DNA from: Sulfuricurvum sp. PD_MW2
GTDB taxonomy: Bacteria; Campylobacterota; Campylobacteria; Campylobacterales; Sulfurimonadaceae
Assembly: GCF_002633015.1 (NCBI RefSeq)
Contig: NZ_NSIU01000019.1
Coordinates: 1 to 41,861, forward strand
Length of the DNA stretch: 41,861 nt
Reading direction: 5' to 3'
Shown here in pieces: positions 18,005 through 20,218 of this stretch (position 1 is its first letter; each line of letters starts with the position of its first letter). The position numbers and the translations under genes were made by a program. Under the pieces are notes generated by a model, which was given only the letters and a program-made list of their open reading frames with translations, was not told where the DNA came from and made no database searches.

Positions 18005-19183
18005 CTATCGAAGAACATGTCCTACGAATTTAGACATGTTGCCCAATATTTTACCTCCTCGTCGGAATCCTAAACCGCACGCTTCGTAGGCAAAAAATAC
18101 GCCGGCTTGATAGCTATTGCCTGCGTTATCTTTCGGCAATTCGACATATTCTTGATAAATCGGTTTAAAGTTGCCATACGGACCGTCATTGGATTCGAGT
18201 GTGCTGCCTGCAGCGTCTATAATCCGTACATTGGCACCTTCTCGTCCAAACATCCGTTTTTCAACATGAGAAATTCCTTGGAGCGGTTCGAATGATGTTT
18301 TGAGCAGATACGGCGAATCAGGGAAAAGATCGCACAGAATTTTCATCATCCCTTTGGATTGAAAGAGGAGTGTGTAGGCGGGATTGAGAATAATCGCTTG
18401 TTGATTATTCATGATGGTAGTGAGGAGTGTTGCAAGTTCAGGCTCTTCAATCGCAATCTCTTCCCACGGAAAGAGTTTGAACCAATATTCGTAGTTGATC
18501 TCTGCACTATCGTAAATTCCATTCTCATCGAATTTAACGCCGCCCAGCGGCTCAAATCCTGTTTCAAACCCTGCATCGATTGCCATCTGCTGCAATAGAC
18601 GAACCGTTTGTTCCTCTTCAATGTTTCCGCTAGCAGAGCTAAAAAGGATTTTCCATCCTTCATACAAAGCATCAAATTTTTCGGTATCGTCAAACAGCGT
18701 GACAAGACGGCGAAAATTTTCGCTGATTGCTTCATAAATCGAGTTAAATTGACGCTCTTCGTCCATATTATTGTGTTTGAGAAGTGCCCATTGCAAGATG
18801 GCTGTTTCGAAAAGAGCCGTTGGGGTATCGGCATTGAACTCAATGAGTTTAATCGGTTTTCCATCAATCCCTCCCGCAAGATCAAAACGTCCATAAAGGT
18901 GCCAGTGGACATCGTTTTCCCAGCTCTTTTTGATCGGGTCGATCAGATTGAATGGAATTCCGAGATCAAAAAAGAGATTATTATCGATGACGTATTGAGC
19001 TGCGGTAGCATACATATCGTAGAGTTCGTTTACCGCTTCATAATAATTTTCCGCTTCCGCATCGGTGAGCACAACCAATTCATCCGCAATGTATTTGCTT
19101 TGATCAGAATCGGTATGCCAACCGAAACCCATTTGTTCTAATGTTGCATCGTTGATTGGATTTATTTTTTGTAACGTTATCAT
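18005..19183 (-). CDS. glutathionylspermidine synthase-like ATP-grasp amide ligase (YgiC/YjfC type)
   Basis: A 392-residue cytoplasmic enzyme with the preATP-grasp and ATP-grasp layout of glutathionylspermidine synthases. KLIEFNADTPTALFETAILQW is the substrate/ATP segment; MFGREGANVRI and the terminal AYEACGLGFRRGGKILGNMSKFVGH are also typical. It resembles the short E. coli YgiC/YjfC proteins, which lack the amidase half. Known members join the glycine carboxylate of glutathione to a polyamine; the true substrate here is unknown. The ATG at 19183 is chosen for GGAGG 6 nt upstream. One base separates it from the lipoprotein stop. Confidence 0.88.
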   Translation of the reverse strand: MITLQKINPINDATLEQMGFGWHTDSDQSKYIADELVVLTDAEAENYYEAVNELYDMYATAAQYVIDNNLFFDLGIPFNLIDPIKKSWENDVHWHLYGRFDLAGGIDGKPIKLIEFNADTPTALFETAILQWALLKHNNMDEERQFNSIYEAISENFRRLVTLFDDTEKFDALYEGWKILFSSASGNIEEEQTVRLLQQMAIDAGFETGFEPLGGVKFDENGIYDSAEINYEYWFKLFPWEEIAIEEPELATLLTTIMNNQQAIILNPAYTLLFQSKGMMKILCDLFPDSPYLLKTSFEPLQGISHVEKRMFGREGANVRIIDAAGSTLESNDGPYGNFKPIYQEYVELPKDNAGNSYQAGVFFAYEACGLGFRRGGKILGNMSKFVGHVLR

Positions 19184-19184
19184 A

Positions 19185-19778
19185 TCAACCTCCAAAACTG
19201 CTGCTGCTTGAGGTGCTTTTCGCGGCCGAATTTCCAAAGAAACTTTTTTTCTGCGTTGAAGAAGAGGCCGGAGTACTCATGCCGCTTGCTGAGCGATGGT
19301 AGGCGGAGCGGTTGGACATGTCCTGATGTTTACGGACATTCGCATTATTCATGAGCGCATTTCCGATCATGTTACCCAATAATGCCCCTCCGGCAGCTGC
19401 GAGGATGGTCCCTGCCAACCCCATACCTTCGCTGTGGGGCTCTCCATTGAGTTCAGACTGACCCGATTCCATTTTTTTGTACTCTTGATCCGCCATCTCT
19501 TTCATTTCGGCTTCCGTCAAGACACGTTCGTGCACGGTTCCATTTTCGTCTTTAGAACGGATAATTGCACGACTAGGGCCTTCGGTAGGCATCTCTTCTA
19601 CAATGACATATTTGCCGTTTGTGAGTTGTTCCACGACCAAAAATTTATTTTTTGCTTCGGCAGCTTTTTCTTCGGCAGTTTTTTCTTCTGGAGCGCTTTG
19701 ACATCCGCTAAGAGCACTAAGGACGACAAATCCCATGGTTCCGAGCATAATATGATTTGCAGAGGTAAAAGGTTTCAT
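19185..19778 (-). CDS. UPF0323-type lipoprotein with glycine zipper and Ser-rich Gly-Gly tail
   Basis: A 197-residue lipoprotein. The signal ends in the lipobox LSGC (C26). The +2 residue is Gln, which predicts outer-membrane sorting. Segments in order: Glu/Lys/Ala-rich linker (27-45); a small beta-like domain (FLVVEQLTNGKYVIVEEMP); an acidic helix; a glycine-zipper hydrophobic stretch GLAGTILAAAGGALLGNMIG (about 119-138); a polar region; and a Ser-rich tail with FFGNSAAKSTSSSSSFGG at the C-terminus. I recall similar proteins (Cj0371 in Campylobacter, HP0232 in Helicobacter). It is co-transcribed with the ATP-grasp ligase, one base apart. Confidence 0.85.
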   Translation of the reverse strand: MKPFTSANHIMLGTMGFVVLSALSGCQSAPEEKTAEEKAAEAKNKFLVVEQLTNGKYVIVEEMPTEGPSRAIIRSKDENGTVHERVLTEAEMKEMADQEYKKMESGQSELNGEPHSEGMGLAGTILAAAGGALLGNMIGNALMNNANVRKHQDMSNRSAYHRSASGMSTPASSSTQKKSFFGNSAAKSTSSSSSFGG

Positions 19779-19786
19779 TTTGACTC

Positions 19787-20218
19787 CTATCGTAATTGTT
19801 TTAAATGTTTGGAATTGAGTTTAAAAATTTTGGAGGCGCTTTTTTCCGATAATCCTCGATAATCTTCGACAATGATATCGGAGACATGGTAACAAAAATC
19901 TGGGTTGTAGTGTTCTCCGCTTTTGTTGGCCGAAGTCGAAAAGAGCCATCCGTAAGGCTTTATAAGACATGCGTGTTCCAAATCGCTGACAAATCGAAAC
20001 GCTTGATTTTTGAGGACAAAAGTGGTTTTACGGCTATGTCGGATTCGGTGTTTGTGGATGGGCGGAATACGGATATCAGAGCGAAGAATTTTGAGTTCTG
20101 CATATACTTTGAGAAAAGGTTTATTTCCATTGCGCATTTTGATCTCTTCAAGACGAGATGCGTCTTGCGAGAGAAATCCGACGGTAGTGTCGGTTTGAGC
20201 AAGGATGATTTTGTCCAT
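19787..20218 (-). CDS. short Sua5/YciO/YrdC-domain protein
   Basis: A 143-residue protein with recognisable parts of the threonylcarbamoyl-AMP synthase fold. TDTTVGFLSQDASRLEEIKMR (residues 9-29) aligns with the TDTVYGL...KIKxR region and keeps the Lys and Arg (K27, R29). STSANKSG (94-101) is the other signature. It is well below the usual size of about 190-210. The PGP-type segment in the middle is replaced by HSRKTTFVL. It may be a reduced TsaC partner in t6A synthesis or a paralog with another role. It starts 3 nt after the carB stop and ends 8 nt before the lipoprotein start. Confidence 0.72.
   Translation of the reverse strand: MDKIILAQTDTTVGFLSQDASRLEEIKMRNGNKPFLKVYAELKILRSDIRIPPIHKHRIRHSRKTTFVLKNQAFRFVSDLEHACLIKPYGWLFSTSANKSGEHYNPDFCYHVSDIIVEDYRGLSEKSASKIFKLNSKHLKQLR

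Follow-up and report, generated by a model that had tools for sequence, protein, structure and literature searches.

A tailed lipoprotein beside a glutathionylspermidine-synthase-like ligase in Sulfuricurvum: a candidate pair for C-terminal polyamine attachment before export

The window, i.e. the whole stretch of DNA analysed, comprises 41,861 nucleotides from Sulfuricurvum sp. PD_MW2, and on its minus strand a lipoprotein gene is followed by a ligase gene with a single base, 19184, between them (the lipoprotein stop codon is 19185-19187, the ligase ATG is at 19183 and the ligase stop ends at 18005). The features are as follows.

19185..19778, minus strand: lipoprotein gene, UPF0323/PRK04081-like, 197 aa, the proposed substrate (translation and NF003146 match)
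18005..19183, minus strand: ligase gene, 392 aa, a stand-alone GSP_synth ATP-grasp amide ligase of YgiC/YjfC type
19701..19778, minus strand: signal peptide with lipobox LSGC and lipidated Cys26 (translation; G25 and C26 invariant in alignment A4)
19341..19427, minus strand: Gly-rich hydrophobic segment, residues 118-146, borderline as a transmembrane helix (hydropathy, alignment)
19233..19250, minus strand: internal tail motif KKSFFG, residues 177-182 (F181 more than 90% conserved in the alignment)
19188..19196, minus strand: terminal FGG, residues 195-197, the proposed amidation site (translation, ortholog tails)
18818..18889, minus strand: ligase active-site stretch R99-x-D101 ... E115-x-N117-A-D-T-P-T122 (invariant in alignments A1, A2 and A3)

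The lipoprotein is thus laid out as lipobox, acidic body, Gly-rich hydrophobic segment and basic Ser-rich tail, with KSTSSSSSFGG at its C-terminus. A first-pass annotation had described a lipoprotein with a Ser-rich FGG tail and, one base on, a glutathionylspermidine-synthase-like ligase, and both translation and the PF03738 match bear this out. The genome is 99.99% complete and its best named relatives are Sulfuricurvum MAGs, with ligase identity of up to 92%. A 143-aa protein encoded at 19787-20218 on the same strand, with a sub-threshold match to Sua5/YciO/YrdC (19 bits), has the lipoprotein gene on one side and a large carbamoyl-phosphate-synthase-like gene on the other, and these three genes possibly form one transcription unit.

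PF03738 (GSP_synth) covers ligase residues 12-390 (399.6 bits, E 2e-119) and was the sole domain found in the Pfam search, a fused N-terminal amidase domain being absent. By sequence the nearest solved structures are YgiC (130 bits) and YjfC (113.5 bits), with the bifunctional glutathionylspermidine synthetase at 59 bits, and a fold search with the predicted ligase model placed YjfC at the top, followed by a Gss structure and then YgiC. The window ligase shares with YgiC and YjfC the NADTPT signature and the residues of R-x-D and E-x-N; on the model of Gss structures these residues are assigned to metal binding. In all 206 Campylobacterota loci that showed the pattern, TPT comes after N-A-D, as against SAS in E. 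coli gss, and N-(A/G)-D-T-P-(T/V) follows the metal-binding Glu in nearly all tail-linked ligases where the pattern was found, Gss having NADSAS. YgiC and YjfC, which RefSeq names 'peptide--spermidine ligase', are reportedly active as such. By domain, motifs and an adjacent tailed exported protein the window ligase is of YgiC/YjfC type, and its joining activity is predicted from sequence. In Helicobacter mustelae the ligase stands at number 44 of a proteome abundance list (PMC2846917), so this is not a scarce enzyme.

The family name of PF03738 is that of glutathionylspermidine synthase, and taken at its word it would make glutathione the carboxylate substrate here. The genes needed to make glutathione were sought as glutathione synthetase GshB (PF02955) and glutamate-cysteine ligase GshA (PF04262), and neither was found in the 99.99% complete genome, the E. 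coli control being positive; carboxynorspermidine decarboxylase NspC is present (538 bits), and on both counts glutathione is an unlikely substrate. With the amidase domain lacking, NADTPT in place of NADSAS, and YgiC itself reported, in the account that PMC12506659 gives of Sui 2012, to be without glutathionylspermidine synthase activity, it is scarcely credible that the database name describes what the enzyme does.

The lipoprotein matches NCBIfam PRK04081 (NF003146) over nearly its full length (162.4 bits, E 9.4e-48), short of the curated cut-off of 194, and since that equivalog cut-off is passed by none of the 71 genomes of the window genome's own family, the protein is by that cut-off a PRK04081 relative rather than a member. 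A Pfam search of it gave no match to DUF1190 (PF06693), the Pfam family of E. coli YgiB and YjfM, which agrees with the earlier remark that the lipoprotein families paired with such ligases are differently named. There is a weak indirect link to DUF1190 via phrog_13808 (E 8.6e-6), and comparison of the UPF0323 and DUF1190 profiles aligns a Gly-rich segment; shared ancestry of the two bodies was dropped as a proposal, that alignment spanning just 20 columns. A Pfam SARAF match (18.6 bits, below cut-off) is regarded as compositional. In the 50-sequence lipoprotein alignment A4, G25 and C26 are invariant and L121, G135 and L142 conserved.

Residue counts were made on 179 distinct orthologous Campylobacterota tails, two frame-disrupted copies being left out. 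The final position holds G in 122, S in 54 (30%) and A in 3, with G just before it in 166; among the first 118 sequences, about 86% have F or Y at the third position from the end. The rule can be written aromatic-Gly-(Gly/Ser/Ala); a low-complexity stretch precedes the end, and the terminal positions stand out against it. The terminal Gly is accordingly not invariant, a correction to the first-pass annotation, given the S and A ends and the tails of genus g19 (presumably gastric Helicobacter), which end in FNS, FNA or AIS-like residues. GG and GS endings both occur within several genera. An internal (R/K)(G/S)(G/F)FG motif is conserved too, about 10-15 residues before the end. Acidic residues are nearly absent: over the last 25 residues of the 179 tails, D+E occupy 4 of 4475 positions and K+R 630, with 14.5% D+E in the lipoprotein body. 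As read from its sequence, the tail would in effect present no carboxylate other than that of the C-terminus, and since an ATP-grasp ligase activates a carboxylate, the purging of side-chain carboxylates from the tail points to the C-terminus as its target.

Whether lipoprotein and ligase genes co-occur across genomes had been put forward as a check, and they do. In 397 Campylobacterota genomes, with presence lists compared by eye, 355 have both, 40 neither, 2 the lipoprotein only and none the ligase only, for totals of 355 genomes with the ligase and 357 with the lipoprotein. Genomes with and without the pair coexist inside about ten genera (g2, g5, g17, g21, g27, g41, g48, g50, g55 and g65), which implies that the two genes were lost together repeatedly. 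Spacing is usually a few bases, or the genes overlap. In one genus (genomes G020 and G023; loci L119, L120 and L121) the lipoprotein is not beside a ligase; G023 keeps both genes, far apart, with the ligase elsewhere in the genome on the opposite strand. As to the two lipoprotein-only genomes, in one (G231) a contig end truncates the lipoprotein, and the other (G211, family f2, 99% complete; L134:1456-2145) is a real exception, with a lipoprotein bearing a GGGFGG tail and no ligase detectable in that genome. Its retention of the tail fits a role for the tail itself in the envelope, e.g. a basic Gly/Ser tail that binds anionic surfaces, with the ligase linked for some other reason. Positive charge after the hydrophobic segment in 118 of 118 orthologs fits that role also, but charge requires neither a fixed terminal Gly-(Gly/Ser/Ala) nor an RGGFG-like motif, and an envelope role gives no reason to expect the tail beside a single ligase subfamily in phages and five further phyla; it is accordingly rated improbable.

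The E. coli pairs named in the first-pass annotation are real. YgiB ends TSSRSMGG, the Ser-rich Gly-Gly end described there, and adjoins ygiC, and YjfM ends ARGHWGG and adjoins yjfC. Together with 22 plasmid-borne GSP_synth loci (one of them a further yjfMC copy) these two chromosomal pairs give a sample of 24 loci from outside Campylobacterota, with hosts in Pseudomonadota, Actinomycetota, Deinococcota, Bacillota and Cyanobacteriota. In 23 of them there is a neighbouring exported protein with a Gly/Ser-rich tail, mostly of the form ...SRGGFG...GG, the exception being L151 of Azospirillum, whose ligase is divergent (28% to YgiC). The partner is the gene directly upstream in 19 of the 24. By hand count partners end in GG in 17 cases and GS in 3 (20 of 24), with GG, GS or SG at the ends of 4 of the 148 other genes in the same loci; a Fisher test with a lower count (18 of 24 against 4 of 148) gives p = 8e-16. 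The partners were picked by looking at tails; a fair figure takes the gene immediately upstream, which by hand count ends in GG or GS in 16 of 24. The enrichment is more than chance. Across an alignment of 12 DUF1190 proteins both terminal glycines are more than 90% conserved and two glycines of RGGFG are invariant, and by its position KKSFFG may be the counterpart of that RGGFG. E. coli gss, which encodes the true glutathionylspermidine synthetase, has no tailed neighbour at its locus. Two plasmid loci deserve mention on their own account: one from Roseomonas (L150:3426-7197) has two tandem GSP_synth genes followed by DUF350 and a DUF1190 protein ending SSGG, and one from Bacillus subtilis, a Gram-positive phage-plasmid (L154:2910-4583), has a 129-aa lipoprotein ending SSGFGG and then a divergent ligase that is identical in phage vB_BsuS_PJN02.

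Several of these partners are without Pfam similarity to DUF1190, and this bears on the idea that the ligase makes a small peptide-polyamine metabolite which the lipoprotein binds, exports or senses. There is precedent, as glutathionylspermidine and trypanothione are products of known relatives, small amides are formed by ATP-grasp relatives of E-64 type (PMC12568646), and the DUF1190 lipoprotein is described as metal-chelating in passages of PMC11237479 that make no mention of the tail. Such a metabolite would, though, leave unexplained why partners lacking detectable similarity have a common tail, and why that tail is acid-free with a fixed small end, and the searched glutathione synthesis genes were not found in the genome. 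Its production by the ligase is unlikely.

Phages have the system as well. The ligase family is encoded in 136 phage-collection records (a few being bacterial contigs), and an adjacent tailed lipoprotein is present in 4 of the 5 phage loci read. An RGGFG-like motif lies near the end of 37 of 67 distinct upstream reading frames from 80 viral contigs. The 49 phage tails collected end in G, S or A in 45 cases and in E in 4, and having mostly been chosen by the RGGFG-like motif they are informative only as to ends and charge. The carriers of ligase and tailed lipoprotein (L240, L241, L244 and L245-L324) include T4-like phages of Aeromonas and Acinetobacter, a Sinorhizobium jumbo phage and many IMG/VR contigs; PHROGs labels the ligase a moron/auxiliary gene and the lipoproteins unknown. 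The phage copies suggest that phages use the tail-ligase system too. In Achromobacter phage Motura (L242:803-3628) three genes follow one another, for an annotated homospermidine synthase (with domains of saccharopine dehydrogenase), for a DUF1190-like lipoprotein bearing the tail, and for the ligase, a trio that is possibly a self-contained polyamine-modification cassette.

Motura is pertinent to the identity of the amine, on which the tail is silent, the tail evidence bearing on the carboxylate side alone. NspC was tried as a correlate of the ligase and set aside, since it is near-universal in the phylum (30 of 30 genomes with the ligase, 37 of 41 without) and does not discriminate. A modified tail carrying some other amine, be it that of an amino acid, of peptidoglycan or lipid, or of a Lys in a different protein, draws on both of these points. 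Set against it are the phage homospermidine synthase, the reported activity of the closest characterised relatives as peptide-spermidine ligases, and the passages of PMC11237479 in which GspS-like ligases share operons with AdoMet decarboxylase and polyamine oxidase; a non-polyamine amine is, on balance, not likely, if less far-fetched than a tail with an envelope role. Should the tail be the substrate, a polyamine is strongly favoured as the amine.

The reading preferred here is that the lipoprotein C-terminus receives spermidine, or a polyamine related to it, from the ligase before export, at a probability of roughly 0.6. Lipoprotein and ligase would be substrate and enzyme, translated in that order from the same message; with ATP, the carboxylate at the end of the tail would be turned into an acyl phosphate, to be attacked by a primary amine of the polyamine to give a polyamine amide at the lipoprotein end, with Sec export and lipidation after ligation, for which back-to-back translation would help. 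That the tail is the ligase substrate is considered probable. The first-pass proposal of the tail, as opposed to glutathione, as substrate gains from joint presence and loss, from recurrence of the tail in phyla and phages, from its paucity of acidic residues and from the failure to find GshA and GshB; the modification itself stays a prediction. The tail as natural peptide, a polyamine as the amine in this organism and a cytoplasmic reaction before export (or on a tail kept cytoplasmic) would each have to hold. Points against polyamine attachment to the tail are S at 30% of ends, the g19 endings, the four phage Glu ends and G211.

No signal peptide is seen on the ligase, and access to the tail before export is therefore the weak step. 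An alternative setting would have the tail left on the cytoplasmic side of the membrane. Over 118 orthologs the best 19-residue Kyte-Doolittle mean of the hydrophobic segment is 1.16-1.74, and in all of them charge is acidic before the segment and basic after it. A transmembrane helix keeping the tail cytoplasmic fits the charge pattern, yet hydropathy is borderline and the AlphaFold helices are short and broken. We take C. jejuni Cj0371 to be the ortholog of the lipoprotein, from its locus tag beside Cj0372, a GSP_synth protein. Papers on Cj0371 predict one transmembrane segment, in keeping with such a helix. Several partners in other phyla are without the hydrophobic segment, so a membrane-held tail, conceivable for UPF0323, cannot be the general solution. 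In an AlphaFold model of a lipoprotein-ligase fusion made by reading through the stop (Sulfuricurvum ortholog L164) the tail is disordered (pLDDT below 50) and undocked, in a test that the tether weakens.

In a wider form, the proposal would have polyamine attachment to the C-termini of exported proteins as a modification in general use among bacteria and marked by a tail code that can be recognised, for which the odds appear about even. The code would consist of an RGGFG-like motif, almost no acidic residues and a small-residue Gly end. Several lipoprotein families would use it, in six phyla or more, and phages would carry it, one of them at least together with a polyamine gene of its own. 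Peptide-spermidine ligase chemistry was already reported in 2023 and is not new; how widely the tail pattern occurs, and that phages have it, was not found described in the literature surveyed, which took in Pederick et al. 2023 by title and citations. If correct, there would be a natural substrate for a very widespread enzyme family named after a reaction that many members probably cannot perform, a function for UPF0323 and DUF1190 lipoproteins, including the Campylobacter and Helicobacter relatives, and a bacterial C-terminal polyamine modification of proteins parallel to SUMO-spermidine.

Of known systems, E. coli Gss and trypanothione synthetase have the ATP-grasp fold and the metal/ATP motifs in common with the window ligase, which differs in being without the amidase domain, in having TPT in place of SAS after the metal-binding Asn, and in a genome where the GshA and GshB families were not found. 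YgiB-YgiC and YjfM-YjfC are closer, with an exported protein whose basic Ser/Gly tail ends in GG directly before a stand-alone ligase of about 390 aa. Identity of the window ligase to YgiC and YjfC is, however, about 30%, the bodies of YgiB and YjfM are Cys-rich DUF1190 as opposed to UPF0323-like, and the PspA, DUF350 or YjfK genes found beside YjfMC are lacking in the window. The PspA-linked operons described in passages of Ravi et al. 2024 (PMC11237479) also have ligase and lipoprotein in one operon, some with polyamine genes nearby, the window having the two-gene core only. The conjugation of spermidine to SUMO (PMC12270671) is by eukaryotic E1/E2 enzymes unrelated to ATP-grasp and onto a folded, ubiquitin-like substrate; it too is ATP-dependent and, as proposed for the Sulfuricurvum lipoprotein, places spermidine on the C-terminal Gly of a protein ending in Gly-Gly.
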